The notes under the pieces were generated by a model, which saw only the letters and a program-made list of their open reading frames with translations, was not told the origin of the DNA and ran no database searches. A DNA stretch of 64,000 nt from Methanosarcina sp. 2.H.T.1A.6 (GTDB lineage Archaea > Halobacteriota > Methanosarcinia > Methanosarcinales > Methanosarcinaceae), in assembly GCF_000979455.1 (NCBI RefSeq), contig NZ_JJOY01000030.1:124001-188000 (forward strand). The letters are read 5' to 3'. How positions within the stretch are numbered: position 1 is the first letter of the stretch; the number at the start of each line of letters is the position of its first letter. This document shows positions 33,232-60,764 of the stretch, one piece after another. The translations under genes were made by a program, and so were the position numbers.

Positions 33232-33630
33232 ATGAAAGGATTTTCTATTGATATCGAAAAAGCCACTCTGGAAAATGACAATTTCCGCAAGGTGCTCTAT
33301 ACCTCAAAGCACAGCCAGCTGGTACTTATGAACCTCAAACCCGGGGAAGAAATCGGGATGGAAGTCCATGAGGAAAACGACCAGTTTTTCCGTTTCGAGA
33401 AAGGGCAAGGGAAGTGCATAATTGACGGCAACGAGCATGAACTCAGTGACGGGGTTGCAGTTATTGTGCCAGCCGGCGCACAGCACAACGTCATCAACAC
33501 TTCGGCAACTGAGGACCTGAAGCTCTATACGATCTACTCCCCGGCGCACCACAAGGACGGGATCGTGCGCGCCACGAAGGAAGAAGCCGAAGCCAATGAA
33601 GCGGAATTCGACGGAGTGACTACAGAATAA
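33232..33630 (+). CDS. cupin-domain protein
   Basis: A 132-residue single-domain cupin, unrelated in detail to the one at 12.3 kb. Motif 1 is 'GEEIGMEVHEENDQFFRFEK' (His and Glu ligands, one expected His replaced). Motif 2 is 'VPAGAQHNVIN'. The C-terminal tail 'ATKEEAEANEAEFDGVT' is typical of a widespread short cupin group in bacteria and methanogens. The substrate is unknown. It is in the + orientation, convergent with the phosphoesterase, and lies between repeat copies e and f. Confidence 0.88.
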   Translation: MKGFSIDIEKATLENDNFRKVLYTSKHSQLVLMNLKPGEEIGMEVHEENDQFFRFEKGQGKCIIDGNEHELSDGVAVIVPAGAQHNVINTSATEDLKLYTIYSPAHHKDGIVRATKEEAEANEAEFDGVTTE

Positions 33631-35099: not shown

Positions 35100-35137
35100 G
35101 TGTCAATCCTTGTTTTAGTGGATCTTGCTTCTCAAAT
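35100..35137. repeat. solitary 37-bp CRISPR-type repeat, copy f
   Basis: Begins gtgtcaatcc, contains ttgttttagtggatcttgct and ends ctcaaat, one base longer than the consensus. It lies in the gap between the phosphoesterase and the RNB ribonuclease (34866-35330), which holds no other recognisable feature. Confidence 0.8.
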
Positions 35138-35330
35138 GGTTTGTCTGCTGCTATACCACCAAAAACAAAAGTCATACCAACCGAAAAGCTAACCATCAGA
35201 TTTCCAATCAAAACAGTCATTCAGGATCAGAAACGCAGCAGAAATAAAAAATAGGCATCTTTTACCACTCTTTTAATAACCAATATACATATAAGAAAAG
35301 CACACCAAATTTTTTCACCGAAGTGGTATT

Positions 35331-37106
35331 ATGCTGGATATGCTCAAAGGCATTACGATCGATGACGTGACAACCCGGGACATGGATGATGCAATCTGGG
35401 TGGAAAACACGGAAAACGGCGGTTGGCACGTCGTGGTCATGATCTCGGATGTCACAAAGGTAGTTCCTGCGCATTCCGAGCTTGACCGAATTGCGATGTC
35501 CCGGGTCGAGACAAGATATTATGCAACCGGTAACAGTCCGATGCTGCCCCGGCGGCTTGCAGACGAGAAGCTTTCCCTGTGGCCGGGAGAGTCGAAGTAT
35601 GTCCTCGCCGTGGATATCATCCTCGGCGTGGACCTGTCGGTCCTTGAAACCAGGCTTTCGTGGACTGCGATGACCAGCGAAGCCCGGCTCACCTTTTCTG
35701 ACATCCCCCGCATTCTCTCTGATCGAGAGCACCCGCAGCACACTCTCATCAAACTCGCAAGCCAGCTTGCGAACGGTCTTTTGACGCAGCGCCGCAACCG
35801 TGGAGCGCTGGCATTCTGCGACTTGAGTCGAGGGCTGGTGACGAGTGAAGAAGGATCGCTTCGGCAACTGAGACGCAGGGAGGATACCATCGGCTATGTC
35901 ATCATCCAGGAACTGATGATTCTCGCGAACATGACAGTAGCAGAGTACGCGATCATAAATGATATTCCTATCCTTTTCCGTAACCATACAGCCCGGAGCG
36001 CCACCCCTGAGCGGGAGGACTTGCTGAAGCTGCTCGAAAGCACGGCTGTAGTCCCCGAGATAAACATAGCTACCATCGGGCATACCACGTACATGATGTT
36101 CAATAGAGCGGAATACGCCCCCACAATCCTGGGCCATTTCGGACTGAACATCGGAGTGTATACCCACTTCACCTCGCCCATCCGAAGGTATGCTGATCTC
36201 GTGAACCACCAGCAGATCCGGGCATACATCCGGAACGAGCCCTTGCCCCATTCTAAAGAGGAGATTCAGGCAATTGCATCGCACGTCAACCTGATTCACC
36301 TAGAAAACGACAAAGCTAAAAGCGAGTACATGAAGGAAAAAGCGTATAGAAAAGCTGAGTCGGCCATCCTGGGGAACCGGATCGAGGATGCAAGCGATAC
36401 AGACTTTGAACGCATCACCAAAGTTCTTATCCGCAAAGGGGAGGACTGCCCCGAGACCTACTGCGATGCTTTCCGGAAACGCCTTGGCAAACTGCCGATC
36501 ATCTGCGCAGGGCTGGTACTCCTGCAGGCCCCTGATGGTGAAAGATGGACCGAACTTAAAAAAGAACTGCTGGAAGAGATGGCAACTGCACCTCACCGGG
36601 CAACCTCGATCTTCGATATCGCGCAACATATACCGGGCTGGCAGATGCCCGTATTCGAAGTGAACGAAACTGCCCGGGGCAACCTGCCGGTATTCACTGC
36701 CAGGAGCGCTACTAGAGTCGGTGATAGAGAGTACCGATCCGCTGCATACGAAGACGTGACAAAGAAAGGCGCCGTGCAGCGGGCATCTGTAGACCTGCTC
36801 GCAGCCATTGCAGGCTTACCCGCTCCGGACCTGAAGGCCACGATAGCAAATCCGCCGGCCAGCAAGGAAGAAATGACGATTAACACGTCAAAAGACCCGA
36901 TTTTTGCCCTGCAGGAGTATTGTCAGGCAAAGAAACTCCCCTTGCCAGCTTATTCATTTAAGACGGAAGGCCCGACCAACAAACCGATCTTCACCTGTAC
37001 CTGTACCTTTGGCTCCTCGACCAGCACCGAACAGGCGGGAAAAAAGCAAAGGGCCAAACGGCTAGCGGCTAGAGCGATGATATACACTTTAGTGTCCGGG
37101 AATTGA
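35331..37106 (+). CDS. RNB-domain exoribonuclease with C-terminal double-stranded-RNA-binding domains
   Basis: 591 residues. The RNB catalytic domain (~1-340) starts almost at residue 1 with the metal site 'TIDDVTTRDMDDAIWV' and ends with the family's 'YTHFTSPIRRYADLVNHQQI'. The cold-shock and S1 domains of RNase II/R are missing. Instead the C-terminus carries a clear dsRBD ('DPIFALQEYCQAKKLPLPAY' through 'GKKQRAKRLAARAMIYTL') and, before it, a partial one ('KGAVQRASVDLLAAI'). It is more GC-rich than its surroundings and is bracketed by 37-bp repeats f and g, so lateral acquisition is likely. It probably degrades structured RNA 3' to 5'; the target is unknown. Confidence 0.88.
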   Translation: MLDMLKGITIDDVTTRDMDDAIWVENTENGGWHVVVMISDVTKVVPAHSELDRIAMSRVETRYYATGNSPMLPRRLADEKLSLWPGESKYVLAVDIILGVDLSVLETRLSWTAMTSEARLTFSDIPRILSDREHPQHTLIKLASQLANGLLTQRRNRGALAFCDLSRGLVTSEEGSLRQLRRREDTIGYVIIQELMILANMTVAEYAIINDIPILFRNHTARSATPEREDLLKLLESTAVVPEINIATIGHTTYMMFNRAEYAPTILGHFGLNIGVYTHFTSPIRRYADLVNHQQIRAYIRNEPLPHSKEEIQAIASHVNLIHLENDKAKSEYMKEKAYRKAESAILGNRIEDASDTDFERITKVLIRKGEDCPETYCDAFRKRLGKLPIICAGLVLLQAPDGERWTELKKELLEEMATAPHRATSIFDIAQHIPGWQMPVFEVNETARGNLPVFTARSATRVGDREYRSAAYEDVTKKGAVQRASVDLLAAIAGLPAPDLKATIANPPASKEEMTINTSKDPIFALQEYCQAKKLPLPAYSFKTEGPTNKPIFTCTCTFGSSTSTEQAGKKQRAKRLAARAMIYTLVSGN

Positions 37107-37149: not shown

Positions 37150-37259
37150 GTTTCAATCCCTGTTTTAGTGGATCTTGCTCGCGAATCTGTAACTACCAGC
37201 GTTTCGACTACTTTCACTGATGGTTTCAATCCTTGTTTTAGTGGATCTTGTTCGCGAAT
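37150..37259 (-). CRISPR. minimal CRISPR-type array: two 37-bp repeats, one 36-bp spacer (copies g and h)
   Basis: Repeats at 37150-37186 and 37223-37259 start gtttcaatcc and end cgcgaat, differing at two positions. Read on the minus strand they end ATTGAAAC, the usual 8-nt crRNA 5' tag, so transcription would run leftwards. The intervening 36 bp is unique in the window. The repeat differs from that of the large array. Six further solitary copies lie between 31.0 and 35.1 kb. No leader is recognised. The remaining gap to cas3 (37260-37607) holds nothing else. Confidence 0.75.
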
Positions 37260-37607: not shown

Positions 37608-39830
37608 TTAGGAATCTTTGTAAAAAATTCCCATAATAGATTCTTCTGAATCCAACAAAAGACCAAATTTAGAACTGTAGTCAACACTTGCAAATATCAT
37701 ATCAGAGTCAATCTGGATTTGATTATTATATTTTAGTTTTTTGTATTGACCAACATTTATCGAGACGACATATTTCATAGCTTCAAAATACCTTTTATTT
37801 TCGATTTCCTCAAGATACTCAAGTTTAAACTGAGTTGGAACAACTTCAACGGATTGATATAGGTTGTAAAACTCTTCCTGATTTTCTCTTTCGTTTATGA
37901 AAGGAACAATTTTGCTATGAAACTTGGGAAAGTTTTTTTTCACCATTTCGAAAGATGCCAGATCTGAACCCTGATATCCATTCGAATAAACTTCGTCCAC
38001 AAGTTTTTGAATTCTACTTTCTCTTAGAATATTCTCTTTACCTAACAGCTCCAGACTTTTAGCGACTAATTCCTGATTTTTATAAACGTATTTGTCTTTT
38101 TCAGATCCTTGCTCAAAAATGTATACGGGCTTGATTACCTTTTGTTCCCATCCTTTTCGATTAACCCTTCCAAATCTCTGGATAAGGGCATCGAGGGGGG
38201 CTGGTTCTGAAAATAGTACATCGTAATCAATATTAAGAGAGACCTCAATTGCCTGTGTGCCAACTAGAAGGTTCAGATTCTCTAATTTTGATTCAATTTC
38301 CTCTCTGTCTCTGAGGATAAATCTTCCGTGAATTAATGCCGAGTTACATACTTTTTGAGAGAGCGATTTATAGATATTTTGGGCCTGAGCTACGGTATTA
38401 CAAACAACAAGCACTTTTTTGTTATCATCAATTTCTTTTTTGATGAGATCCAAATTATCTAAAATGCCTCCCTTAAGAACAGAAACTCTATGTCTTGTAA
38501 ACTCATTCAGTTCAGGTTCTGTAAAGGAGATTTCTTTTGTGATTCCCAGTTCCCGCTTAAACATTTCTTTAAGAAAAGAAGGAAGAGTCGCAGACATAAT
38601 CAAAAAATTAGCTTGATAATCTTTCAAGATCTTCAATGTTTCAAGGATCAAGGCAGTTGTATGAGCATCATAAGCGTGAATTTCGTCCATTATGAAAAGA
38701 GCATTGGACATTTCTGCAAGATTCTGCTCAAAACCTCGAATTCCAAACATTGATTTAAGAATCTGATAGGGAGTCGCTATTTTATAAGGTCTATAAATTT
38801 TATCAGTGAGGTTTTTTATTTGTTTTGCTTTTTTACTTGCAATCAGGTAATCTTCTTCATCCTCAAAGCTTTGGTACAGATAGTACATAGCTTTTCCATG
38901 TTGGATACCAGTCAATTCAGGATCTTTAAAGTCCCTTTGAAGTCGTTTATACATTGCATTTATACTAGCAGTGTAGGGAAGCAGGTAAAAGACCCTTTTA
39001 GACCTACCAGAATTCTGATTTGCCTGACTCCAGAACAATGAGGCTTCAGTTTTCCCACTTCCAGTAGGTGCGATTAAAAAAGCATCACCTTTTGTTTCTG
39101 ATGCTTGACTCTGCGTTTTTCTCAGTTCAGAAAAATTATATACAGCTCTCATGTCTTCAATTCCACATAATAAGCTGTACTTTCCCCCTGATGCGAGATG
39201 ATCACAGGCTGTTAAAAATCCCTTGAGGAATATCCCGTACTTTCCATGTAAACTTGTTAATTCATAATCTTCAAGCTGATTTTTATAAGGTAGTACGGCA
39301 TTTTTATACGAATCAACCATTTCTTCTATTGATTCTACTTCTCTAAATTTATTTAATTCAAAGCCCAGGTACTTTTTGCTGATTACTGGAATTTTTCGTT
39401 GAATTTCCCTTAATTCTTCAAAGTTAGGAGTTAATTCCTGTAGCTTTTCAGAATACCGTTTTTTGCCAACTGGACTCGGATGCGTCTGAAACCTTTCCCG
39501 CAAATGAGATACGTCTTTGTGGTGCGTAATAATCGCCATGGCTATGGCTTCTTTAAACTGGCTCTCATATTCAAGCCCAGAAACAAAACCTGCAGAGAGA
39601 ATTTCATGCCTGTATTTCCATTTCTCCTTTCCAGAGAGAGATTTTTGAAATCCTGATGCAGCCTTTCCAAAGTCATGGAAAAAAATAGAGTAGAAGAGGT
39701 GTTCCCAGAAGTCAGGAACTCCACAGACCTGTGGGGTTTCAGGGTATGCATCTTTTACGCTTTTGAAGACCATGAGGGCTTTTTCGGTATGTTCCAGCAG
39801 AGTTTCATCCGGTTTTGCAAGAATGACCAT
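37608..39830 (-). CDS. cas3: Cas3 (HD nuclease-helicase), type I-B
   Basis: 740 residues. The N-terminal HD nuclease domain has 'FYSIFFHDFGKAASGFQ'. The SF2 helicase has Walker A 'APTGSGKTEASLFW', a DExH-type box 'FIMDEIHAYDAH', SAT motif 'IMSATLPSF' and motif VI 'QRFGRVNRKG'. Cas3 is recruited by Cascade to target DNA and degrades it 3' to 5'. It is the last gene of the interference operon cas8b-cas7-cas5-cas3, 22 bp after cas5. All motifs are intact, so the system appears functional. Confidence 0.95.
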   Translation of the reverse strand: MVILAKPDETLLEHTEKALMVFKSVKDAYPETPQVCGVPDFWEHLFYSIFFHDFGKAASGFQKSLSGKEKWKYRHEILSAGFVSGLEYESQFKEAIAMAIITHHKDVSHLRERFQTHPSPVGKKRYSEKLQELTPNFEELREIQRKIPVISKKYLGFELNKFREVESIEEMVDSYKNAVLPYKNQLEDYELTSLHGKYGIFLKGFLTACDHLASGGKYSLLCGIEDMRAVYNFSELRKTQSQASETKGDAFLIAPTGSGKTEASLFWSQANQNSGRSKRVFYLLPYTASINAMYKRLQRDFKDPELTGIQHGKAMYYLYQSFEDEEDYLIASKKAKQIKNLTDKIYRPYKIATPYQILKSMFGIRGFEQNLAEMSNALFIMDEIHAYDAHTTALILETLKILKDYQANFLIMSATLPSFLKEMFKRELGITKEISFTEPELNEFTRHRVSVLKGGILDNLDLIKKEIDDNKKVLVVCNTVAQAQNIYKSLSQKVCNSALIHGRFILRDREEIESKLENLNLLVGTQAIEVSLNIDYDVLFSEPAPLDALIQRFGRVNRKGWEQKVIKPVYIFEQGSEKDKYVYKNQELVAKSLELLGKENILRESRIQKLVDEVYSNGYQGSDLASFEMVKKNFPKFHSKIVPFINERENQEEFYNLYQSVEVVPTQFKLEYLEEIENKRYFEAMKYVVSINVGQYKKLKYNNQIQIDSDMIFASVDYSSKFGLLLDSEESIMGIFYKDS

Positions 39831-39852
39831 ATTTCGTCCCTTACTTTACGAA

Positions 39853-40476
39853 TCAATTCTTATGAAGCCAGACTGCCCAGTTCATTTCTGGGTCAAATAA
39901 ACACTTATCAGGATAGGTAAAGAATTCGTCCATCAGAAGATAGGGTTTTACTCCTACAGCTTTTCGGGGAATAGTATCAGTAAAATGACTTGGAAGAGCC
40001 TGCACTAGACCATATGCACCTTTAATTCCAAAAGGAAGGATAGTTTTCCCTAACCTCTTTCCAGCCTCTTCTTCAAGCTCCAATTCCTTTATTTCTGAAA
40101 CTTTTGCCAGGTCTCCGGATCTACCAAAAAGGAGGGGATACTGAGGCTTACGGAAATATTTACTAAATTCGGGCCTGTCAAGATAGAGATAAAGTTCAGG
40201 ATTATACAAGAATTCTCTTTTTATGACATTTGATTTTGCAGAAAGCCCTGGACTTAATTCATAGATCGTTTCAAGGTCTACTGCTTTACTCTCAAAGTCA
40301 AATACATAACCAATATTTACATCATCGGGGACAGTTAATTCTCCTCTCGCTGCTGAAATCAGCCCATATACAGTACTTATGGGAGGAGCTGTAAGAGTAG
40401 GCTGAAAACCGCTTATAAATCCGGGATACCTGAAGGATGCGGTCCAGCCCTCAATTTTGATCCTTAAGACTTTCAT
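39853..40476 (-). CDS. cas5: Cas5 (type I-B, Cas5t-like)
   Basis: A 207-residue RAMP-fold Cas5. It starts 'MKVLRIKIEGWTASFRYPGF', the typical Cas5 opening strand, followed by 'PTLTAPPISTVYGLISAARG'. In type I-B Cascade it binds the 5' tag of the crRNA and bridges Cas8b and the Cas7 filament. It starts directly after cas7 (1-bp gap), so they are co-translated. The subtype comes from the neighbours. Confidence 0.92.
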   Translation of the reverse strand: MKVLRIKIEGWTASFRYPGFISGFQPTLTAPPISTVYGLISAARGELTVPDDVNIGYVFDFESKAVDLETIYELSPGLSAKSNVIKREFLYNPELYLYLDRPEFSKYFRKPQYPLLFGRSGDLAKVSEIKELELEEEAGKRLGKTILPFGIKGAYGLVQALPSHFTDTIPRKAVGVKPYLLMDEFFTYPDKCLFDPEMNWAVWLHKN

Positions 40477-40477
40477 C

Positions 40478-41479
40478 TTACCTCATCAGCCCGGGAATCG
40501 TTTGCACAAAAGAATCAACCATTTCGTTTATAGAACCGTAAATTACTTTTTGACTGTTGTCGGCATATTTTTCAGTTAGAGCTTTAAGTGCAGGATCAAG
40601 CTCATCCATAAAACCCTTACGTCTTCCGATATAGATATCAGTCAACAGGATATCGGAATAATCGGAAATCACATCTTCCAGAGCTTCAATGTCTACAATG
40701 GCTTCCCCATTTTCCTCTCTGACCAGATTCATAAAGAGATGATTTCCACCGTCTACCCCAGCGAGTATGAGAAGTTTTGGCGAGACATCAGTGAGATGGG
40801 ATGTTTGTTTCGCACCGCCTGTAAGGTATGGAAGAGCTTTTAACACGTCTTTTGCCCTCTTCATTCTGACTTCGGCAGGCATTATCCATTTACTTTCTAC
40901 CTTTTCCGCCCCATTTTTTTCTGCAATTGCTTCGAGTTCAGAATACATATTTCTGTATCCTGTTTTTTCGTTCTTGTAAAACACACCGATGTTGTCAAGG
41001 TCAAGGGAAAAGATTCCTTTCAAAACCGTGGAGTAAAATTCGTGCTCATAAGGAACAGGGTCACCTTCGTGGCGTGCCATCACTCCGAAATCTTCCGTAG
41101 GAACCTGACCTGCAACCGAAACAAGAGGAGAATTCTTCAGGACTGAAAGCCTTGTGACGGTGCCCCCGTCTGCTTTCTTGAGCGCTCTCATGTAACCAAA
41201 TACGTCGTCATCATCGTATTCAACCGGGTTAGCACTTGTAAACGCTATTTTTTTCTCCCGCTCAATAGGGGAAACATTCCAATTGAACTTCTTTTCGAGG
41301 GTTGTGCGCCACCAGTACCTGAGAGCCTGTCCTGAGACATAGGGGTACACTTTCCTTCCTTTCCGGATTGCCTTCACTCTGACAACGTTTTCCGTCCTTT
41401 CACTGCTGTCATTTCCTGCGTTGTTGAGTGCTGAATGGGGAGCATCGATAAGCATGAAACCGTTTATTGTATGTGTCAC
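40478..41479 (-). CDS. cas7: Cas7 (Cst2/DevR family), type I-B backbone subunit
   Basis: A 333-residue RAMP protein of the Cst2/DevR type: 'INGFMLIDAPHSALNNAGND' and 'YPYVSGQALRYWWRTTLEKK'. Several copies coat the crRNA spacer in Cascade. It follows cas8b by 2 bp and precedes cas5 by 1 bp. Length and motifs are normal. The DevR/Cst2 label is the family I recall for this sequence style. Confidence 0.92.
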   Translation of the reverse strand: MTHTINGFMLIDAPHSALNNAGNDSSERTENVVRVKAIRKGRKVYPYVSGQALRYWWRTTLEKKFNWNVSPIEREKKIAFTSANPVEYDDDDVFGYMRALKKADGGTVTRLSVLKNSPLVSVAGQVPTEDFGVMARHEGDPVPYEHEFYSTVLKGIFSLDLDNIGVFYKNEKTGYRNMYSELEAIAEKNGAEKVESKWIMPAEVRMKRAKDVLKALPYLTGGAKQTSHLTDVSPKLLILAGVDGGNHLFMNLVREENGEAIVDIEALEDVISDYSDILLTDIYIGRRKGFMDELDPALKALTEKYADNSQKVIYGSINEMVDSFVQTIPGLMR

Positions 41480-41481
41480 AA

Positions 41482-42867
41482 TTATTCCTCCTCAGATAAT
41501 TCCGTTTCTTCTTCCTCGCTAGAGATGAGTTCAGATTTCAAAGCGTCCTGTCCAACCAGCCAGTTGTGCAGATTTTCGTAAATCCTGAAAAGTAAAAGAT
41601 CCTGAGTCTCTTTCCATCCCATATTCCCTTCAGGGAAGAGGTCTTCCATAAATTCTTCAAGAGTAAAAAGTGAGTTTTGAGAACCTTTTTTTATTCGGTC
41701 TTTTTCGATCAGCCTCAATAGATTTCTGAATGTGACAAAATTACTTGCCATTTCAAGCTGATTCAATTTTTTTATGTTTTGAGTATCCTTTATGTAATCT
41801 GAGATGCTGTCCCCAACTTTCTTGAGGGTATCCAATCTTTTACCACCCATGTTTCTTACCTCTGTCAAATAATATTCCAGTAACTGCCAATCCCCGTAGA
41901 CCTGCCTCGCTTTATTGTCGATGAAATATTTCACAATAGAATGACCTTTTAGAAGATTTATGTAAACAGAATTGCCTTTATTTTTGTATTCATCTCCTTC
42001 CTTAATTTGTTCAAAATTAAAATAGCCCTTTCTAACAATTTTTATCCATTCTGAAAACTTATCTTGGTGTTTGACATAAGCCAGGAACCTGAATACTGGA
42101 GTAGGAACTCTATAGATCTCAAGATCGGGTCCCTGGTTATAATTTGTAAAATGGTACATGCTTATAGAGGGATTCTCTTCAATCCATCTTTCTTCATATT
42201 GGAGAATTAAATCCTCAATTATATGGAAAAGAGCATTAACAGGATTTTTGTAACCCTCATCAAAACAACCTCTGTAGCTATTTGCTGAAATCTGTCTCCG
42301 AACATCCTTTATCGCTTTTTCTGCCCAATAATGCATTACTTTGTTAGAGTTTGAGTGGATGAGCAAAAGTTTTCCACATGCATAAAATATAAAAGGTGAG
42401 AATTGAACGGCAAGTGTGCAGGCAGCACAGTAATCAGCGCCTTGCTGACCGTAGGGGAAAAAATTAATCAATGTTCCTGAACCTATGAGGGGAATTTCTG
42501 TTTTTGTCCTAACGTCCTCAACATCATATCTCCCACAAGAGATGCAGTTACCGAACTCTCCTAACCCTCCCTGAGATTCAACCTGACCAATTAGCTGCTC
42601 TAAAAATTCAAGTAATCGTTTATCCTTATTTTTCACAGAGGGATTAGTAACCGCGTTATTCGGAAAAACAGAATAAAGGCTCTTTGCCCATTCCGGACTT
42701 AAATATACAGAGATCACATCTTGTTTAATTTCTCTGAGATCCTCCACTGTAATTTCTTCAGGCTTTTTTCTACCCGACCACTCGCATATAGCCCATATAC
42801 CAGCATCCACAAAAGGATTCCCAGTAAACGTATAAAGAAAACCCTGGCTCATTATTGTTACTTCCAT
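41482..42867 (-). CDS. cas8b: Cas8b (Cst1-like), large subunit of type I-B Cascade
   Basis: 461 residues, with Met6 (MSQGFLYTFTGNPFVDAGIW) as an alternative start. A zinc-finger-like pair of CxxC motifs occurs at 'NCISCGRYD' and 'DYCAACTLA', as in Cst1/Cas8b1 proteins. It recognises the PAM and recruits Cas3. It is the first gene of the interference operon and starts about 110 bp from the degenerate end of the CRISPR array. It is read in the same direction as the array, so read-through from the array is possible. Confidence 0.88.
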   Translation of the reverse strand: MEVTIMSQGFLYTFTGNPFVDAGIWAICEWSGRKKPEEITVEDLREIKQDVISVYLSPEWAKSLYSVFPNNAVTNPSVKNKDKRLLEFLEQLIGQVESQGGLGEFGNCISCGRYDVEDVRTKTEIPLIGSGTLINFFPYGQQGADYCAACTLAVQFSPFIFYACGKLLLIHSNSNKVMHYWAEKAIKDVRRQISANSYRGCFDEGYKNPVNALFHIIEDLILQYEERWIEENPSISMYHFTNYNQGPDLEIYRVPTPVFRFLAYVKHQDKFSEWIKIVRKGYFNFEQIKEGDEYKNKGNSVYINLLKGHSIVKYFIDNKARQVYGDWQLLEYYLTEVRNMGGKRLDTLKKVGDSISDYIKDTQNIKKLNQLEMASNFVTFRNLLRLIEKDRIKKGSQNSLFTLEEFMEDLFPEGNMGWKETQDLLLFRIYENLHNWLVGQDALKSELISSEEEETELSEEE

Positions 42868-42977: not shown

Positions 42978-45146
42978 GGATTAAGACCTCTAAGAGCTGA
43001 TTTTAACAAATTTTATAGGGACATAATAAACATTTCGGAATAGGTTTCAATTCCTCTAAGGTATGATTTTAATGCTATAACGGACCCCATTTTATTATTC
43101 AATATTAAATGTTTCAATCCCTCTAAGGTCTGATTTTAACCCTCTGCCTGCAACCTCTCGGAATATTTAAACGAATGTTTCAATCCCTCTAAGGTCTGAT
43201 TTTAACAAACCCCCTCCCTCTCCACCTTATACGGAGCTATCAGGTTTCAATCCCTCTAAGGTCTGATTTTAACTATTCTTCTATTTTGATTCCTCCATGT
43301 GTCTCAATTGTTTCAATCCCTCTAAGGTCTGATTTTAACGCTCTGCTGACCTTAACGAAGAGCTTGCAGATATCCGTTTCAATCCCTCTAAGGTCTGATT
43401 TTAACATCCAACGGCGAGGACACTTATGCTCTGATCAATCTGTTTCAATCCCTCTAAGGTCTGATTTTAACGCTATAGCCGTTCTTGGTTATGTGCTGAT
43501 AAAGAAGGTGTTTCAATCCCTCTAAGGTCTGATTTTAACGCGAATACAGGATTAAGATCAATATGGTTGGATTCTACGTTTCAATCCCTCTAAGGTCTGA
43601 TTTTAACAATATTCCGCTTCTTTTTGCAGTTGACGAAATAGGAGCCCGTTTCAATCCCTCTAAGGTCTGATTTTAACGGATTTGGTAGGTAGGGTACTGT
43701 ATTGCATAGCTCGTTTCAATCCCTCTAAGGTCTGATTTTAACTTTTTAAGGTTCAATTCAACATGCTTTTTAGGAGGTTTCAATCCCTCTAAGGTCTGAT
43801 TTTAACTCAGATATGGAAAAAGTGTCCGGGGAAGATTGGCACATAAGTTTCAATCCCTCTAAGGTCTGATTTTAACCAGAGGCGCAACCAACGCAGGCAG
43901 AAATCAGGCTCGTTTCAATCCCTCTAAGGTCTGATTTTAACCTGGAATGGCGTTTTTGATTGCATCTAAAGCTGCTTTGTTTCAATCCCTCTAAGGTCTG
44001 ATTTTAACAAGGGATAAAAGCTATTGATAACTTCTATAATGGAAATGTTTCAATCCCTCTAAGGTCTGATTTTAACGATTAACCGTTTTTTAATAGAGCG
44101 AGGGGTCTTTAATGTTTCAATCCCTCTAAGGTCTGATTTTAACGCAGCATATGAAGCGTATAGGCATGGGGTAGAGGAAGTTTCAATCCCTCTAAGGTCT
44201 GATTTTAACCATCTTCTTCGTCGTCTCTTTTTTCTTCCACGTCAATGTTTCAATCCCTCTAAGGTCTGATTTTAACCAATCTGGTCTGAATGGGTCAATG
44301 TCTGTGCCTGTGTTTCAATCCCTCTAAGGTCTGATTTTAACGAGATGGAGCGCATAGATAGATGAATCACTCTATAAAAAAGTATCAATCCCTCTAAGGT
44401 CTGATTTTAACGATGCTCTCGTCATATGTAGACGTGTCGTGGTTATGTTTCAATCCCTCTAAGGTCTGATTTTAACACTGAATAGCGATTAACTGACTAT
44501 ACCGAGTAGGCTTGTTTCAATCCCTCTAAGGTCTGATTTTAACCTGATTTGGATACAAAATCGAGAGCTACAAAGAGGCTGTTTCAATCCCTCTAAGGTC
44601 TGATTTTAACTAAATTTGATTTTGAACTGTATCAAAGAATTAGGTTGTTTCAATCCCTCTAAGGTCTGATTTTAACTGAAACTTGTAAGTAAGCGCTTAC
44701 AAGTTTTACAACGTTTCAATCCCTCTAAGGTCTGATTTTAACAAATCCGCATATACATTACTGAATGAATATACAACATGTTTCAATCCCTCTAAGGTCT
44801 GATTTTAACATCAAGGATCAATGACGTAATATTGTCTAATGCGTCGTTTCAATCCCTCTAAGGTCTGATTTTAACAGTTTTTGTGATCTTCTCTATTTTG
44901 ACTATATCATGTTTCAATCCCTCTAAGGTCTGATTTTAACAACCTTTCACTGAAGATACCACTGTAGGAGTAGACGTGTTTCAATCCCTCTAAGGTCTGA
45001 TTTTAACCAGTATTGAATTTTCTGTCACCCTCCCTGCTCTGTCGGAGTTTCAATCCCTCTAAGGTCTGATTTTAACTCTTCTGATACATCCTCAATTGCC
45101 GGGCCCTATATAAACAGTTTCAATCCCTCTAAGGTCTGATTTTAAC
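42978..45146 (-). CRISPR. type I-B CRISPR array, 33 repeats of 30 bp, 32 spacers
   Basis: The repeat begins GTTTCAATCC and ends TCTGATTTTAAC on the + strand, with a period of 64-70 bp. I located 32 clear copies from 43044 to 45146 plus a decayed one at 42978-43007. The two leftmost copies are the most degenerate, marking the old end. The copy at 44382 has a single change (GTATC). On the minus strand each repeat ends ATTGAAAC, the standard crRNA 5' tag, so the array is transcribed right to left from a leader beside cas2. Spacers are 34-40 bp; I found no match to other parts of the window by eye. Confidence 0.97.
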
Positions 45147-45719: not shown

Positions 45720-46685
45720 TTACCACCACATTACGAGAGGTTTGTAGTCTTCTGCACCGAGGACATGCTTTGAAAGTTTGTACAGCTCAAGCCGGATAAG
45801 GCGTTTGTATGAAACACTCTTGTTAAGGCCTTTGTGTTTGATGGTGGTTTTGAGCTTTTCGTCATATTCTTTGAGGAAAATCTTTTTCCCTTTATCACTC
45901 AATAGCATGTTTCCGATTTCTCCCCGGAAGCAGCCGTCATCCAGCATATTTTTGTTGACAAGCTTAAAAATGATCCTGTCTACCAGGATAGGCTTGAAGA
46001 TCTCGCTTACATCGAGAGATAAAGAGAACCTGCGTTCAAAAGGCTCGTGCAGATACGAGATTGTGGGGTTAAGCTGAGTATTGTAAATCTCTGAAAGGGT
46101 CGTGGAATAGACAAGAGAATTTCCAAAACTGATTAGTGTGTTCATTTTGTTATCTGGCGGTCTTCTGGTACGTTTTATTATCCTGTATTCCTCAGGGAAT
46201 ATTTCATCAAGCGCATTGTAGTAGAGTTCCCTAATTTTTCCTTCCGTCCTCATCATGGAAGGTACTGTCTCCGCATCATTCAGCCGGGAAAATTCGGTTT
46301 CTATGGAGGTTACATAATTTTCGACTGTATTCTGAATGTCTTCCCGGTTTCTTGCATAATATTTGAGGTTTTTCAGGATATTCCCACAGGCACCTTCTAT
46401 AAATTTTCCAGCAAGATCCAACCGTTTTTCGGGATCAAGGTAATATTCAGCCTGCCGTATAACCAGATCTCCACTGATTAGGGTCTCCCGTGGATACATC
46501 GAACCCTCATAGAAGCCGTAGTAATTGAAAAAATGAATCGGAATTCCTTCTTTTGAGAGGTAGGAAACAACTCCTGAAGAAAACGATAGGTTTCCGTAGG
46601 CGAAAATAGAACTTATTTTGTTTATTGGCAGGATCTTTCTGCCTTCTTTGTTTTCAAAATAGACCGTGTTTTCTTTTCTCTTCAA
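45720..46685 (-). CDS. cas1: Cas1 integrase (type I-B)
   Basis: 321 residues. The N-terminal beta-sheet domain is followed by the helical catalytic domain with the metal ligands: Glu in the '[20 protein letters not shown]' region, His in '[20 protein letters not shown]', and Asp in the same segment. It inserts new spacers at the leader end of the array. It is in an operon with cas6, cas4 and cas2. Confidence 0.95.
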
Positions 46686-46771
46686 AATTCCGTCCTGTAA
46701 AATGTAAAAATCTTCCCGGATTCTTTTACCCCCTCTTACTTCTAAATATTATCACGATTTCTCTGGTTCGT

Positions 46772-47374
46772 TCATGCTCCATCTTCGTCGCCCTTACCAC
46801 AGAAACAAAATTCCTGATAAGCACATTTTAAACAGATTTTTTTGTGCATTGGTGCAGGCATTGAGCTAAGAACTATTTTTTTAATCTCCTCAATATCTCT
46901 TTCAGTATTGGCTTCGTCTTCTGCATTCATTTCAATTTTCTCTGTTTTATTCAGCAGAGGATAATTTAAAATTCCTACTGCATCAAAACCTCTTTTCTTG
47001 AGGTAATAAAGGTAAAATAAAAGCTGAGCTCTATCCGCAGCATCCATTTTTTTGCTTTTTTTGATTTCGTGAATCTCAATTCTTTTTCCTGTTTTCACAA
47101 AATCAATGCTTATACCATCAATGGTAACATTTTTAAGATTCTTCTTATAACGGTCTTCGTGCAGAATCTTTCCCAGGGAAACATTATCGTTCTCCCTCTC
47201 AAGATTTATATTATGAGAAAAAAGCCAGAGTTTTGTCTTGCAGATATGATAGTAATTTACCTTAACTCCAGTAATCCGAACTGAGTCCAGGAAAACCTCT
47301 GCATATATATTTGTTTCAGGCCCATCATTCAGCTCTAAACTATAATCTGTATCTTTAACAGATTCATCGTTCAC
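46772..47374 (-). CDS. cas4: Cas4 nuclease
   Basis: A 200-residue RecB-like PD-(D/E)xK nuclease: 'GISIDFVKTGKRIEIHEIKK' gives the Asp-...-Glu-x-Lys core. C-terminal cysteines 'KICLKCAYQEFCFCG' plus an N-terminal Cys form the 4Fe-4S site. It trims prespacers and selects the PAM during adaptation. It lies between cas6 (23 bp upstream) and cas1 (86 bp downstream). Confidence 0.94.
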   Translation of the reverse strand: MNDESVKDTDYSLELNDGPETNIYAEVFLDSVRITGVKVNYYHICKTKLWLFSHNINLERENDNVSLGKILHEDRYKKNLKNVTIDGISIDFVKTGKRIEIHEIKKSKKMDAADRAQLLFYLYYLKKRGFDAVGILNYPLLNKTEKIEMNAEDEANTERDIEEIKKIVLSSMPAPMHKKICLKCAYQEFCFCGKGDEDGA

Positions 47375-47397
47375 TCCAAAATCCCCTTACCTTGTGT

Positions 47398-48126
47398 TTA
47401 CTTCAATATATCCACACACCCAAACCCCATAGCGTTTTTTTCGCCCAGCCCGGCGTCATACGCAAACTCCAGGAGTTCCGGGTTTGCAGATAGAGATAAG
47501 TCCATCAAACTGCAGCGTCTATAATTGTTTTCCACCGTTACGCGCTTGGGCTTGAAGTTTGGAATACCCATAATTTCGAAAAAGTCCTTATCGATTTTTG
47601 ATCCGTAGAATTCTTCATATCGGGCAACTAGATTCTTATGCAGGTTTTCGTGAAACTTTGAGTCTTTAGGGTACAGATCGAACTCTACCAACCGTTCTTC
47701 CTGTTTTCTCAGGGTTTTTAAGTAAATAGGAGAAAGGGTCCTGAAGGTACATGTATCCGAAAAATGCATAACAGGAAGAACTTCAATTCTGTCAATTATA
47801 AAGCTGGTCTTATTTTCATTGTTCCCGAGAAAAAATTCAGGTTCAAGCAAAAGTCCTTCTGCAAAACTTCTTATAAACTCTGGGTCAGGAGATGAAAGGA
47901 AAAAATGAGCCTTCCTGAAGTTTAACCCGTTTTTTTCAGGAATTCGGTCGTCAAGAATAAGGTTTGAAAACGTATAAAATTTAAAACCTTTCTTACTATG
48001 AGTTTTATCTGCAAGCTCTACATTTGAGGCAGCTAATTTTAAGTACAGCATTGAGGCAAGACCATACTGATAATCGTAATGGAGCGGACCGGGAGATATT
48101 TTTTTTATACTTACCCTGCATCTCAT
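47398..48126 (-). CDS. cas6: Cas6 crRNA-processing endoribonuclease
   Basis: About 242 residues (MRCRVSIKKISPGPLHYDYQ). The C-terminal Gly-rich loop 'AGLGEKNAMGFGCVDI' is the Cas6 signature. It cuts pre-crRNA inside each repeat, leaving the 8-nt 5' tag. The frame opens with TTG 48132, but ATG 48126 is preferred: a TATA box (centre ~48153) lies about 27 bp upstream, which suggests a leaderless mRNA starting at that ATG. It is the first gene of the cas6-cas4-cas1-cas2 operon. Confidence 0.93.
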   Translation of the reverse strand: MRCRVSIKKISPGPLHYDYQYGLASMLYLKLAASNVELADKTHSKKGFKFYTFSNLILDDRIPEKNGLNFRKAHFFLSSPDPEFIRSFAEGLLLEPEFFLGNNENKTSFIIDRIEVLPVMHFSDTCTFRTLSPIYLKTLRKQEERLVEFDLYPKDSKFHENLHKNLVARYEEFYGSKIDKDFFEIMGIPNFKPKRVTVENNYRRCSLMDLSLSANPELLEFAYDAGLGEKNAMGFGCVDILK

Positions 48127-48140
48127 AAACAACTATTAGA

Positions 48141-48771: not shown

Positions 48772-49539
48772 TTATTTTTCCATAGCCTTAGCCCGGAGGT
48801 CTTCAGGGAATTTTTCGATTGCGTACCTGAGGGAGGTCCTGGGCATTTCTTTTTTGTTTTTCATGACATAATCGAAGACTTCCTGCAGGTGGGATTTGCT
48901 GGCTTCTTTCAGCATCCAGCCATAGCCTTTCCGGACGAGGTCGTCTTTATCTGTGAGGAGAAGGTCTGAGATTTCGAAGATATCCGGCAGGAAAAGGCCT
49001 TTTCTTGCAGGCAGGACAAGAGTTACTGCGGACGCACGCCTGAGCCAGCGGTTGTCCGATTGGGTCCAGAGCTTGAGGTTTTCAATATAAGGTGGGAATT
49101 TTTCGATAAAAAAGCCGACTGTGTGGTTGCAGAGGGTGTCGCATTTCGCCCAGTTGTTAACGTATTTTTCGACCCAGTGCTCAAAAACAGAGAAGTCGGC
49201 TTCGGTGTATTCGGCTCTTACCTGGTATGCCCATTCGAAGGCGATATAGGCTTCCTCGCAGTAGTCCGACTGAAGGAGTTCTTCACACAGGAAAAATATA
49301 TTTTTTTTGTCTGCCTGCCCTGCATTGTTCAATTCCTTTAAATAGTCCTTTGCGATTTTTCCGACAGCAGAAGACTTAACCCCATAGCACTTCACTTCCT
49401 CTTTAAAAAAGCGGCAACAACTATTTTTTGTCTTTTCGTCAACGCTTCCGGCTAAGTCCTTCCTGACCCTGGATACGACATCGGTTTGCACAGTTTTGTA
49501 TTTAATCAAAGGTTTACTTATATCTTGTTTTTCAGGCAC
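48772..49539 (-). CDS. DNA alkylation repair protein (AlkD-like)
   Basis: A 255-residue HEAT-like solenoid of the AlkD/AlkC type. These are DNA glycosylases that release bulky or charged alkylated bases without base flipping. Characteristic segments are 'WAKCDTLCNHTVGFFIEKFP', 'WLRRASAVTLVLPARKGLFL' and 'KDDLVRKGYGWMLKEASKSH'; the Asp in 'CDTLC' is the usual catalytic position. It is cytoplasmic and monocistronic. Its 5' end abuts the 15-bp minisatellite region. Confidence 0.9.
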   Translation of the reverse strand: MPEKQDISKPLIKYKTVQTDVVSRVRKDLAGSVDEKTKNSCCRFFKEEVKCYGVKSSAVGKIAKDYLKELNNAGQADKKNIFFLCEELLQSDYCEEAYIAFEWAYQVRAEYTEADFSVFEHWVEKYVNNWAKCDTLCNHTVGFFIEKFPPYIENLKLWTQSDNRWLRRASAVTLVLPARKGLFLPDIFEISDLLLTDKDDLVRKGYGWMLKEASKSHLQEVFDYVMKNKKEMPRTSLRYAIEKFPEDLRAKAMEK

Positions 49540-49602
49540 GAGAAATGGTCAGATATGAGAAAGATACGCTGATCCGGATAAAAGGTACGCTGACTCGGAT
49601 GA

Positions 49603-49707
49603 GATCTGTTGAAATAAGATCTGTTGAAATAAGATCTGTTGAAATAAGATCTGTTGAAATAAGATCTGTTGAAATAAGATCTGTTGAAATAAGATCTGTT
49701 GAAATAA
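49603..49707. repeat. 15-bp tandem repeat, 7 identical units
   Basis: Seven perfect copies of gatctgttgaaataa and a partial eighth, in the short region between the divergent alkD and GNAT genes. The unit is a multiple of three, so it leaves open frames on both strands (SVEIR- or FNRSY-type repeats). I regard those as artefacts of the repeat. The array lies where both upstream regions should be. Confidence 0.95.
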
Positions 49708-49759
49708 GATCTGGAAAAAAATCCGGAAAGAAAAATGGAAGGCGTTAAAAACATTTTTC

Positions 49760-50278
49760 ATGAGGAAAGCTCAATTTTCCATCATGCCTCAAGTAAAGAT
49801 TCGCCCTCAGGAACTTTCCGATGCCAAGCGTTTTTTTGAAATTTTAACACACACGGACTTTGAGTTTATAGAAATCCCGATCGAAACCCTTGAGGATGAA
49901 AAGCGATTCCTGAATCTGAGCGAGGTAAAAAGAAAAACCAATTTTGAACACAACTATTCAATTCTTTTGGACGGAAAACTTGTAGGACTCTGCGGGATCA
50001 GGATAGACCAGCACAGGCCGTGGGCGGGGGAAATAGGTTATCTTGTGGATAACGCTTACCAGGGACAGGGTGTTGCAACCGAAGCTGTAAAGCAGCTTGA
50101 GAAAATTGGTTTTGGGGAACTGAAATTACAGAGGATTGTTATCCTGATGGATATTCGAAATCTCGCAAGTGAGCAGGTCGCCCGGAAGTGCGGGTACGAA
50201 AAAGAAGGGGTTGCAAAAAAGATCCACAGAATAAGAAAAGAGTATTATGACTGCTTCGTATATGCCAAAACCATGTGA
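49760..50278 (+). CDS. GNAT-family N-acetyltransferase (RimJ/RimL type)
   Basis: 172 residues; Met9 (ATG 49784, MPQVKIRPQ) is an equally possible start. The GNAT core is clear: 'GLCGIRIDQHRPWAGEIGYL', then the acetyl-CoA loop 'YQGQGVATEAV', then 'NLASEQVARKCGYEKEGVAK'. This pattern is typical of protein N-terminal or antibiotic/amine acetyltransferases of the RimJ/RimL group. The substrate is unknown. It is cytoplasmic. Confidence 0.92.
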   Translation: MRKAQFSIMPQVKIRPQELSDAKRFFEILTHTDFEFIEIPIETLEDEKRFLNLSEVKRKTNFEHNYSILLDGKLVGLCGIRIDQHRPWAGEIGYLVDNAYQGQGVATEAVKQLEKIGFGELKLQRIVILMDIRNLASEQVARKCGYEKEGVAKKIHRIRKEYYDCFVYAKTM

Positions 50279-50426
50279 GCAGCAGGTAAGCAAGTAAGCA
50301 GCAGGTAAGCAGCGAGCAAGTAACAGGGCAACAACAGGTAAGCAGTAAAAATAGAGTTCAGATCGACCAGTGGGAAAAAATAAAAAATGAAGAAACAGGG
50401 CCTGAATTCGGAGGGTCTGTAATAAC

Positions 50427-50786
50427 TCAGACTAGCCCCACAGTTTCTATAAGGCTGACTCCGTACCAGACTACCATAAGGTTGTTTATCGTTACCAGGA
50501 TGCCTACGGATTCTATTATGTGTTTTGTGAGAGCCCAGCGTCCCTTTGACGTTTTTATAATCGGAGCTACGTAAAAGAGCAAAACGACAAATGCAATTTT
50601 TATAAGCAGGAGATGATAAATTCCGTACTTTTCCAAGATCATTGCAGGAACAGGGTTATATTCTGCACCGAACGGCAACGCGTAAAAGGTAGAAGCCCAG
50701 TCTCCGATCACATAGAAAAGGATGATAAAACGGATATCGTAAAGAAAAGACCTGAACGAACTCCGAATATAGCTAACTTTCAACAA
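50427..50786 (-). CDS. small membrane protein, DUF5658-like
   Basis: 119 residues with three predicted membrane helices: 'FIILFYVIGDWASTFYALPF', then 'YHLLLIKIAFVVLLFYVAPI', then 'SVGILVTINNLMVVWYGVSL'. The 'GDWASTFYA ... EYNPV' segment is the pattern I associate with DUF5658. The function is unknown. It is monocistronic and convergent with the GNAT gene. Short direct repeats (gcaggtaagcag) fill the gap before it. Confidence 0.7.
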   Translation of the reverse strand: MLKVSYIRSSFRSFLYDIRFIILFYVIGDWASTFYALPFGAEYNPVPAMILEKYGIYHLLLIKIAFVVLLFYVAPIIKTSKGRWALTKHIIESVGILVTINNLMVVWYGVSLIETVGLV

Positions 50787-51001
50787 AAACCCCCTCGAGT
50801 ACTTCTCTGTTTTTCGGTTAAAGCGACTTTAGATTATAAGATTATATAAACGTAAGAAACTAAGATAGAGGTTTACAAATTTTAGGAAGGGGGACGTAGC
50901 TTGTTTTAAGAATATATAAGATGTTTACTGGCTGTCGAATATGGAAAGAATGTTTAAACAAACTTAAATAAGCTAATAAACAGGACAATATTTAGTACAC
51001 A

Positions 51002-51130
51002 GTGTTTTTTAGAGCTAAAATAAAAAAAGAAAACTTAAAGGCGCTTGAAGTTGTTTCTGAGAAAATTCCCGACATCAGCCCGAACAGATGCCTGGGGTTT
51101 CCAATATTAGACGGAACGGATTTTTTATGA
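51002..51130 (+). CDS. possible small protein or gene remnant, 42 aa
   Basis: A GTG-started frame reads FFRAKIKKENLKALEVVSEK and then IPDISPNRCLGF..., ending TGA at 51128-51130. The composition looks coding. Its stop overlaps the ATG of the next mini-ORF (ATGA). The family is not recognised. It could equally be the relic of a longer gene. Apart from these two frames the 570-bp gap holds only short direct repeats (aagtaatccggcaaaa, aaagtacgggct). Confidence 0.3.
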   Translation: MFFRAKIKKENLKALEVVSEKIPDISPNRCLGFPILDGTDFL

Positions 51131-51201
51131 TCTCGCTTTCTGACCAGTTAAGGAAATTTCTGCAAGTATGGAAAAGATTTAAAAAGGGGAATTTCGACTA
51201 A
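51127..51201 (+). CDS. possible mini-ORF, 24 aa
   Basis: ATG overlaps the preceding TGA. The product begins MISLSDQLRKFLQVWKRFKK, amphipathic and basic. It could be a coupled leader-type peptide or part of a decayed gene. Weakly supported. Confidence 0.2.
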   Translation: MISLSDQLRKFLQVWKRFKKGNFD

Positions 51202-51355
51202 AAGGAAAACTCTGACGAAAAGATAATTCCAGAAATAAGTAATCCGGCAAAAAGTAATCCGGCAAAATCAGAAGTGAGAGCCCTGCTGGAGAAACGGCTA
51301 AAGTACGGGCTGAAAGTGTAAAGTACGGGCTAAAAATCTGATTTCAAACTAAAAG

Positions 51356-52195
51356 ATGATACTAATGGCTGAACAATTGGCTGAACAATTACAAAACCCG
51401 GGGATGGAAAACTTCCCCTCCCTGCTGGAAATGAAAAATGTTACGGTGATCAGAGGCGGAAAAAAGATCCTTGACTCCGTATCCCTTTCCGTCAAACCCG
51501 GAGAACATGTTGCAATTATCGGGCCCAATGGCTCTGGCAAGTCCTCCCTGATAAAGACATTAACAAAAGAATATCACCCACTGGCAGGAGCCGACGGGCT
51601 CGTACTGAAAATCATGGGTAAGGAGACCTGGAATGTTTTTGAGCTCAGGAATTTACTCGGGATAGTCTCCGGGGAACTCCAGCAGACGTGCTGCCGCCAG
51701 ATCCGGGTCCTTGATGTAGTGCTCTCCGGGTTTTTCAGCAGCATAGGCATATATTACAACCACAAAGTGACCCCTGAAATGGAAGCCAGAGCAGAGGAGG
51801 TTCTGGAGTTCCTTGAGATTTCCCACCTTGCAGACCGATCGATGTGCGAACTTTCCACAGGAGAAGCAAGAAAAGTTCTGATAGGGAGAGCTCTTGTGCA
51901 CGACCCGCAGGCTCTCTTCCTGGACGAGCCCGCAAACAGCCTTGACCTAAAAGCCCTTCACAGTTTCCGCGAAAGTGTCCGGAAAATTGCGCTTTCAGGC
52001 AAAAGTGTGATTCTTGTCACCCACAACCTGCAGGATGTCATTCCCGAAATCAGCCGTGTGGTCCTCATAAAGGAAGGGAAAGTCTTCAAGGACGGGAAAA
52101 AGGAGGAGATCCTGACAGATGCAAACCTCTCGGAACTTTTTTCCCTCTCCGTAAAAGTCCTGGAAAAGGAAGGTTACTACCAGACCTGGAGCTAA
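51356..52195 (+). CDS. ABC transporter ATP-binding protein (ModF/soluble-type)
   Basis: 279 residues; Met4 (ATG 51365) may be the start. Walker A is 'IIGPNGSGKSSLIKTL', signature 'LSTGEARKVLIGRAL', Walker B 'ALFLDEPANSLD', H-loop 'LVTHNLQDV'. No permease or substrate-binding protein is encoded nearby. The protein resembles the small group of soluble ABC ATPases related to ModF/PhrA. Its role may be regulatory, or it may pair with a permease elsewhere. Two DUF1638 genes follow on the same strand. Confidence 0.9.
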   Translation: MILMAEQLAEQLQNPGMENFPSLLEMKNVTVIRGGKKILDSVSLSVKPGEHVAIIGPNGSGKSSLIKTLTKEYHPLAGADGLVLKIMGKETWNVFELRNLLGIVSGELQQTCCRQIRVLDVVLSGFFSSIGIYYNHKVTPEMEARAEEVLEFLEISHLADRSMCELSTGEARKVLIGRALVHDPQALFLDEPANSLDLKALHSFRESVRKIALSGKSVILVTHNLQDVIPEISRVVLIKEGKVFKDGKKEEILTDANLSELFSLSVKVLEKEGYYQTWS

Positions 52196-59286: not shown

Positions 59287-59460
59287 ATTGAATTGTGAAC
59301 TCGAGTTTTATTTAAAGATATCCTTTAAGCTGCCGTACCTGATAATATGCTAATAAATGACAACCTGTAAGAAAAGGATAATATCTCATCAGGTAACGCT
59401 TTTCAGAAATTAGAAACACTTGCAGGAAAATGCCAATTTTAAAAACAATTGAGGAGTTAA

Positions 59461-60030
59461 TCAGGCAAGTTTTAACTCCATTATATAACAGGTCTCATTC
59501 TGGCCGCATATACCTTCTATTTTTTTGATTATCTGAAAATCCATTTTTTCGTACAACTTTATTGCAGGGGTATTTTTTACATTTACATACAGCAGAATAG
59601 AGTATATTCCGTTCAGCCTCATTTCCGTTATGCTTTCTTCCAGAAGCGTCCTGCCATATCCTTTTCCCCGGAATTTCTTGTCGATTGCAATTGAGTAAAC
59701 TACGGATTTCTTTTTCAGTCCTTTGAACGAAAGTTCTGGTTTCAGGTAGTATATACAGTAACCTGCAATTTTGTCCTGGTTTTTAATTACGTAAAAGATT
59801 TTTCTGAATTTCTTTGAATATTTTATAAGATTTTCCTGTTTCTTACTATCAAATCCCTCTGCCTGAATTCTAAGAATCTCAGGAAGCATAGTTTCATCTA
59901 CAGGCAAAATATGTTCCTTTTCGGTATGTTTCCATTCTTTTAGAAGATGAGCCCCGATTGTATCCCGCAGTAGTTTCAGAAAACTCGCAAAATATGAAAA
60001 TAATCTCATGTAAATTTGTGTGGGATCCAT
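59461..60030 (-). CDS. GNAT acetyltransferase, tandem paralogue 1
   Basis: 189 residues with the RimI-like GNAT core 'VVYSIAIDKKFRGKGYGRTL' and 'LYVNVKNTPAIKLYEKMDFQ'. The N-terminal ~30 residues precede the fold. It is very similar over the full length to the next gene (60195-60764) on the same strand, 165 bp away, a recent tandem duplication. The substrate is probably a protein N-terminus or small amine, but this cannot be read from the sequence. Confidence 0.9.
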   Translation of the reverse strand: MDPTQIYMRLFSYFASFLKLLRDTIGAHLLKEWKHTEKEHILPVDETMLPEILRIQAEGFDSKKQENLIKYSKKFRKIFYVIKNQDKIAGYCIYYLKPELSFKGLKKKSVVYSIAIDKKFRGKGYGRTLLEESITEMRLNGIYSILLYVNVKNTPAIKLYEKMDFQIIKKIEGICGQNETCYIMELKLA

Positions 60031-60194
60031 AGAATCACCTTAAAGTGGAAAGCCATTGATATAATTCTCCGTGGGTTTTGTTGCTGCTATTAAAAGAAAC
60101 TCTTTCCTTTGCTGCAGATATAAAGTTATGAACTACAGGCATACTGAACTGTAAAACCGAATTTTTATATAAATATACCCTCTGAGTCCTGAAA

Positions 60195-60764
60195 TCAAAA
60201 AAGTTTAAGTTCCATTTTGTAGCACATCTCCTTTTGTCCACATACGTTTTCTACTTCTTTGATTATCAAAAAGCCCGTTTTCTCGTATAATTTTATGGCA
60301 GGGGTATTGTTTACGTTTACGTACAGGAGGACAGACAATACCCTATTCAGCTTCATTTCCCTGATGCTTTCTTCCAGAAGCTTCCTGCCAAATCCCTTCT
60401 TTCTGAATTTACTATCAATTGCGATCGAATAAATTACAGATTTTTTCTCAAAACCCCGGGATGAAAAAACCGGTTTCAGGTGATATATGCAGTAGCCTAT
60501 TACATTATCTTGGCTCTTAATTACATAAAAGACTTTTCTGAATTTCTGTGAATATTTTATAATTTCCCCCTGCCTTTCATTTTTAAATCCTTCTGCCTGA
60601 ATTCTAAGGATTTCCGGAAGCATGGTATCGTCAACAGTTCCAATATTGTCATATTCAATTTGCTTCCATCCCTTTAAAAGAAAAATTCCTGCGGTATCCC
60701 ATAGTGTTTTTTTAAAACCTCTTAAATATAGATCTGGCTTTGCGTGGATTTTTGCAAGATCCAT
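60195..60764 (-). CDS. GNAT acetyltransferase, tandem paralogue 2
   Basis: 189 residues, the same length and layout as its neighbour: 'VIYSIAIDSKFRKKGFGRKL' and 'LYVNVNNTPAIKLYEKTGFL'. The acetyl-CoA loop here (RKKGFGRK) is slightly altered from the Q/R-x-x-G-x-G/A consensus but is still compatible with activity. The upstream 80 bp lead to the end of the iscB-less element. Confidence 0.9.
   Translation of the reverse strand: MDLAKIHAKPDLYLRGFKKTLWDTAGIFLLKGWKQIEYDNIGTVDDTMLPEILRIQAEGFKNERQGEIIKYSQKFRKVFYVIKSQDNVIGYCIYHLKPVFSSRGFEKKSVIYSIAIDSKFRKKGFGRKLLEESIREMKLNRVLSVLLYVNVNNTPAIKLYEKTGFLIIKEVENVCGQKEMCYKMELKLF

Follow-up and report, generated by a model that had tools for sequence, protein, structure and literature searches.

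Gene and domain layout

The window, the whole stretch of 64,000 nucleotides of Methanosarcina sp. 2.H.T.1A.6 DNA that was analyzed, carries on its plus strand (positions 35331 to 37106) a gene predicted to encode an RNB-dsRBD exoribonuclease of 591 amino acids, as supported by the open reading frame, Pfam matches, and purifying selection in its orthologs. The RNB catalytic domain occupies residues 5 to 301 (35343 to 36233, plus strand; Pfam E value of 7e-66, 223 bits against a curated cutoff of 29.3), so that it starts where a first-pass annotation of the DNA had placed it. It is followed on the same strand by a helical region (residues 302 to 419; 36234 to 36587), which according to the secondary structure of the model forms the end of the RNB fold and a helical linker, by the divergent dsRBD1 (residues about 422 to 494; 36594 to 36812), and by dsRBD2 (residues about 520 to 590; 36888 to 37100), which contains a Pfam dsrm match at residues 526 to 584 (E value of 9e-14, 52.3 bits against a curated cutoff of 23). 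About 40 nt before the ATG lies a TATA-like element, CATATAAG (35288 to 35295, plus strand), which is almost unaltered across 10 genomes in the upstream alignment, and this conservation suggests that the gene may have its own promoter.

A Pfam scan of the protein detected neither cold-shock nor S1 domains and, beyond RNB and dsrm, returned just one weak match to a related dsRBD model; a helix-turn-helix domain is also absent. With RNB beginning at residue 5, there is no N-terminal room for cold-shock domains. The starts of the orthologs coincide, and the open codons upstream would add at most about 30 amino acids in any of them, so cold-shock domains have not been overlooked through a misplaced start. 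The suggestion that dsRBDs take the place of the cold-shock and S1 domains is therefore borne out, with the dsRBDs at the C terminus. The score against the NCBIfam RNase_R model is 206.5 (cutoff, 597.85), that against the superfamily model TIGR00358 is 201.7 (cutoff, 368.6), and the RNase II model likewise scores far below its cutoff; low RNase R and RNase II scores are expected of a protein without the cold-shock and S1 parts. At the level of sequence, the RNB score and the conserved active-site residues place the protein in the RNB (RNase II) superfamily; lacking cold-shock and S1 domains and scoring below the equivalog cutoffs, it would not be classed as RNase R or RNase II proper.

RNB enzymes remove nucleotides hydrolytically from RNA 3' ends. 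Residues D11, D17, D19, D20, Y63, E194, Y262, Y277, R285, and R286 are invariant wherever the residue is present in a 19-row family alignment, and the N-terminal members of this set align with RNase R; D11, D17, D19, D20, and Y63 correspond to active-site residues of RNase R/II. The offset with which the E. coli RNase II match begins places the four aspartates at positions 201, 207, 209, and 210, which are the catalytic aspartates of that enzyme. By analogy with the RNase II/R family, the protein is predicted to be catalytically active with 3'-to-5' polarity.

The C-terminal part had been described as one clear and one partial dsRBD. It does match dsRBD profiles, and dsRBD2 is the clear domain. 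The region described as partial, dsRBD1, matches Pfam dsrm in the window copy with an E value of just 0.21, whereas 10 of 12 family members match singly (best E value, 8e-9). A profile built from this region hits that of the C-terminal dsRBD with an E value of 8e-13 and, when searched against the PDB, finds dsRBD chains of DRB4, TRBP, ADAR, Loquacious, and Staufen. An AlphaFold model of the protein (mean pLDDT, 89.6; pTM, 0.69) was read for domain folds and does not fix the placement of the dsRBDs relative to the RNB channel; it gives dsRBD1 three to four strands and a long helix, with a helix preceding, and dsRBD2 an alpha-beta-beta-beta-alpha fold. Foldseek searches with the model recover RNase R and RNase II and, separately, the tandem dsRBDs of TRBP, Loqs, and DRB4. 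The profile matches, the model, and the Foldseek results indicate that two dsRBDs are present, the supposedly partial one being a divergent yet complete domain. Proteins with Pfam dsrm matches are confined among the 31 Methanosarcina genomes to those with the RNB-dsRBD gene, the one exception being an RNase III of the genome that the window comes from. This RNase III, a 411-amino-acid protein on contig 50 (L092, 5090 to 6325, minus strand) with a dsRBD and possibly a second dsRBD-like C terminus, is the sole other dsRBD protein found in these genomes.

This combination sets the protein apart from the known systems that it resembles. It shares the RNB domain, active-site residues, and fold with RNase R and RNase II, from which it differs in having tandem dsRBDs instead of cold-shock, S1, and helix-turn-helix domains and in forming a separate clade. 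TRBP, Loquacious, and DRB4 have the same dsRBD fold and tandem arrangement; unlike the window protein, they are eukaryotic RNAi partners without a nuclease domain. In RNase III, a nuclease domain is followed by a dsRBD; this enzyme matches the window protein weakly through the dsRBD and differs from it as an endonuclease with an unrelated catalytic domain. Haloferax RNase R and Deinococcus RNase II resemble the window protein in having an RNB domain with reduced accessory domains (PMC12320835; for Deinococcus, also a fold match), but they have no dsRBDs. A 2025 review of RNase R lists Dss1, Ssd1, Deinococcus, and Haloferax as unusual layouts and does not contain the word dsRBD (PMC12320835). 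As no account of RNB joined to a dsRBD was found in the open-access literature, which is weak evidence, the architecture appears to be undescribed.

Occurrence, selection, and relatives

The gene was found in 11 of 31 Methanosarcina genomes and is absent from the other sampled genera of the order. Its GC content exceeds that of its flanks (0.541 against 0.365 in the window), as the first-pass annotation had noted, and the same holds in all 10 orthologs examined. The median dN/dS over 10 orthologs is 0.165 (RNB, 0.163; dsRBD1, 0.213; dsRBD2, 0.118), with purifying selection strongest on dsRBD2, and a ratio of this size, about 0.16, identifies the ORF as a genuine gene and not a chance reading frame. 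The abrupt domain start at residue 5 and the repeats that flank the gene might bring to mind a decayed RNase R, its N- and C-terminal domains lost by rearrangement within a CRISPR array; the identical start in all orthologs, the dN/dS ratio, and the same layout in bacterial and contig relatives rule this out to the point that its probability is negligible.

In the Methanosarcina genomes that carry the RNB-dsRBD protein, no other RNB protein was found, which favors a plain replacement of RNase R, namely, a general RNA-turnover exonuclease serving where there is no other RNB enzyme, with dsRBDs that add affinity only. We consider this unlikely, as the majority of sampled Methanosarcina genomes manage without any RNB protein, three of five bacterial genomes carrying the family also encode a second, separate RNB protein, and dsRBD2 is the most conserved part. 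The patchy presence of the gene, with about two-thirds of the sampled genus lacking it, argues against an essential role in turnover.

Full-length relatives occur on plasmids of Streptomyces, Rhodococcus, Mycolicibacterium, Pseudomonas, and Methylorubrum (dsRBDs were confirmed in relatives from four of these five genera and from Gordonia), on IMG/VR contigs of 48 to 536 kb with identities reaching 40%, and in genomes of Streptomyces, Phytomonospora, and Bacteroidales, the occurrence in bacterial genomes being a lower bound from a contig scan with one narrow pattern. The bacterial and contig relatives have the same layout as the Methanosarcina protein, and the annotated bacterial members are named in databases just "RNB domain-containing ribonuclease" or similar. 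Those on plasmids and contigs combine RNB with one or more C-terminal dsRBDs at a similar length and 27 to 40% identity; some differ from the window protein in a third dsRBD or another C-terminal extension, and they have no CRISPR setting. The search for the taxonomic distribution and gene neighborhoods of this architecture, which had been proposed as a check, thus leads to plasmids, large contigs, and some bacterial genomes in addition to Methanosarcina.

A tree built on RNB residues alone, leaving out the dsRBDs, places the RNB-dsRBD family on one side of a branch with support of 100/99, and the Methanosarcina copy groups with the plasmid, viral-contig, and bacterial members; no donor within the clade is singled out. 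By layout and by the RNB tree, the Methanosarcina copy belongs to an RNB-dsRBD clade that is separate and well supported. The phylum's other RNB proteins match the window protein only over residues about 8 to 360 and do not group with it, and a single group of the Methanosarcina copy and the other archaeal RNB proteins was rejected (p-AU, 9e-7). A vertical archaeal origin is ruled out by the genus-limited occurrence, the partial archaeal matches, and this tree test.

The neighbors of the relatives include phage-type nucleotide-metabolism genes and homing endonucleases, and the large contigs look phage-like by these genes. Such neighbors, together with the occurrence on plasmids and large contigs, would suit an RNA weapon of mobile elements that degrades host, rival, or sensor-triggering duplex RNA and whose archaeal copy retains a defense or counter-defense role. 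This is improbable: the neighborhood comparison revealed no gene partner recurring beside the relatives, the family is also found in a few bacterial genomes, one terminase family searched in 12 records was matched in just 1, and no PADLOC defense model matches the protein, so it is not a known anti-phage defense protein.

CRISPR repeats and cas genes at the locus

The gene lies between CRISPR-type repeats and next to a cas operon, as had been recognized from the sequence. A relic of a 37-nt repeat is located upstream (35100 to 35136, minus strand; Rfam CRISPR-DR7, 41.7 bits), and two further CRISPR-DR7 matches of the same 37-nt type follow on the minus strand, one 44 nt after the stop codon (37150 to 37186) and the second 73 nt further on (37223 to 37259). 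The adjoining type I-B genes cas3, cas5, cas7/Cst2, and cas8b1/Cst1 (37611 to 42867, minus strand) were identified by NCBIfam models, except for cas5, which was assigned by position and size only. Beyond them are the present array of the locus, with about 32 copies of a 30-nt repeat (43044 to 45146, minus strand), and cas1b and cas6 with another gene between them (45723 to 48132, minus strand; NCBIfam).

Weaker copies of the 37-nt repeat are present in intergenic gaps further left, at 31034, 31652, 31750, and 33069, and none were found in shuffles. Together with those at 35100, 37150, and 37223, these relics number one or two per intergenic gap over ~6 kb and are separated by ordinary genes (acyltransferase, cupin, metallophosphoesterase, and RNB), a pattern that looks like the end of an old array split by inserted genes. 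In other species, the array at this locus is built from the same 37-nt repeat, and the cas operon checked among them (G002) is of the Csh1 type of I-B; the window today pairs a 30-nt-repeat array with cas genes of the Cst1 type of I-B. The site, which extends from the cupin gene (window position 33232) to the flank genes at 48775 to 52192, holds I-B/Cst1, I-B/Csh1, I-D, or nothing depending on the species, and judged by this gene content it is a CRISPR-Cas exchange site in Methanosarcina.

A repeat begins about 160 to 230 bp before the ATG in the majority of genomes with the RNB-dsRBD gene (farther in G008), and a second one often follows shortly after the stop codon; no close-by repeat was detected in G026, and in G005 the stretch just behind the stop codon lacks one. 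Next to the locus in G026 (L030, 7317 to 7785), GTTGAATCT units form a short tandem array that is not CRISPR. Where the locus is readable, cas genes are present in all eight genomes with the RNB-dsRBD gene (I-B/Cst1, I-B/Csh1, or I-D, three genomes being typed directly and the rest by similarity) and in three of eight without it (G004, G014, and G029), a difference with a two-sided Fisher p of 0.026 before any correction for phylogeny. Of the five genomes with neither the gene nor cas, four (G016, G022, G007, and G024) retain degraded 37-nt repeats near the cupin gene, as would be consistent with the loss of an ancestral array. We infer that the gene entered that array by a single insertion, at the end distal to the cas operon, and that spacers were later lost and the cas operon was exchanged.

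The bracketing by repeats in most genomes with the gene and the association with cas could point to an accessory nuclease that shortens crRNA precursors from their 3' ends or clears duplexes of pre-crRNA and antisense RNA for the neighboring type I systems, and RNase R, which completes crRNA maturation in a Staphylococcus type III-A system, provides a precedent (PMC9762709). However, the same gene stands beside three different cas operons, in three genomes the locus holds cas but not the gene, and Cas3 helicase-type matches occur in all 31 Methanosarcina genomes (25 above the curated cutoff), of which 11 carry the gene. The gene and cas may also simply be retained or lost together as one island. 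Among 19 relatives outside the genus, 18 have no CRISPR array nearby, the remaining one, L041, shows a short repeat flag at its edge, and no cas gene is named beside the annotated plasmid copies. The cas linkage appears limited to one lineage, so the gene would not be counted among CRISPR-associated accessory genes, and crRNA trimming is a quite improbable, minority reading because relatives outside the genus show no such link and the gene persists whichever cas type is present. The defense role that the CRISPR neighborhood had suggested is likewise weakly supported: the gene keeps its place within the genus, but the cas type varies, cas occurs without the gene, arrays are absent near the relatives, and PADLOC gives no match.

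Predicted substrate and role

The reading that we favor, and consider probable, is that the protein is a hydrolytic 3'-to-5' exoribonuclease of a mobile RNB-dsRBD clade that was captured by an ancestor of Methanosarcina and prefers structured or double-stranded RNA. The clade would circulate on plasmids and large phage-like elements, and the capture would have occurred inside a CRISPR array, at its cas-distal end. The RNB domain would trim RNA 3' ends one nucleotide at a time, and the tandem dsRBDs would stand in for the OB-fold funnel of cold-shock and S1 domains, holding duplexes or hairpins near the catalytic channel in the predicted placement. The preferred substrate would be RNA that is structured or double-stranded and offers a 3' end for threading, the duplex being opened during digestion.

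Binding of duplex RNA is what is expected of dsRBDs, which may also mediate protein-protein contacts. Because the S1 domain and the K/R-rich tail of RNase R aid duplex binding and unwinding (PMC12320835), dsRBDs would be a reasonable functional replacement for these parts. By this analogy a structured- or dsRNA-directed exoribonuclease is favored, and an enzyme specialized for such RNA, as the first-pass annotation had proposed, is the best reading of the domain content. Since about two-thirds of the genus lack the gene, its job would be to clear RNA that is structured, antisense, or foreign and not to serve in essential turnover. A rather unlikely version combines several of these elements: the mobile family would be an RNA-level tool of defense or counter-defense, and the Methanosarcina copy, domesticated in a CRISPR locus, would join whichever type I effector is present in acting on crRNA precursors or foreign duplex RNA.

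RNB exonucleases are usually described as relying on OB-fold domains to lead single strands to the catalytic channel. A widespread clade with tandem dsRBDs that acts as predicted would be a second natural way to aim the RNB engine at duplex RNA; domain swaps could then test which part of RNase R opens duplexes, and the enzyme is a possible source of a dsRNA-degrading reagent. It would also represent a dsRNA-binding enzyme captured by archaea that are otherwise almost devoid of dsRBD proteins and retained next to an old CRISPR array while the CRISPR system itself changed.

Two further repetitive features were observed elsewhere in the window. At positions 49584 to 49713, a 15-nt unit (ATAAGATCTGTTGAA) occurs seven or eight times in tandem, and a direct duplication of 300 nt with 73% identity is present at 59459 to 59758 and 60193 to 60492.
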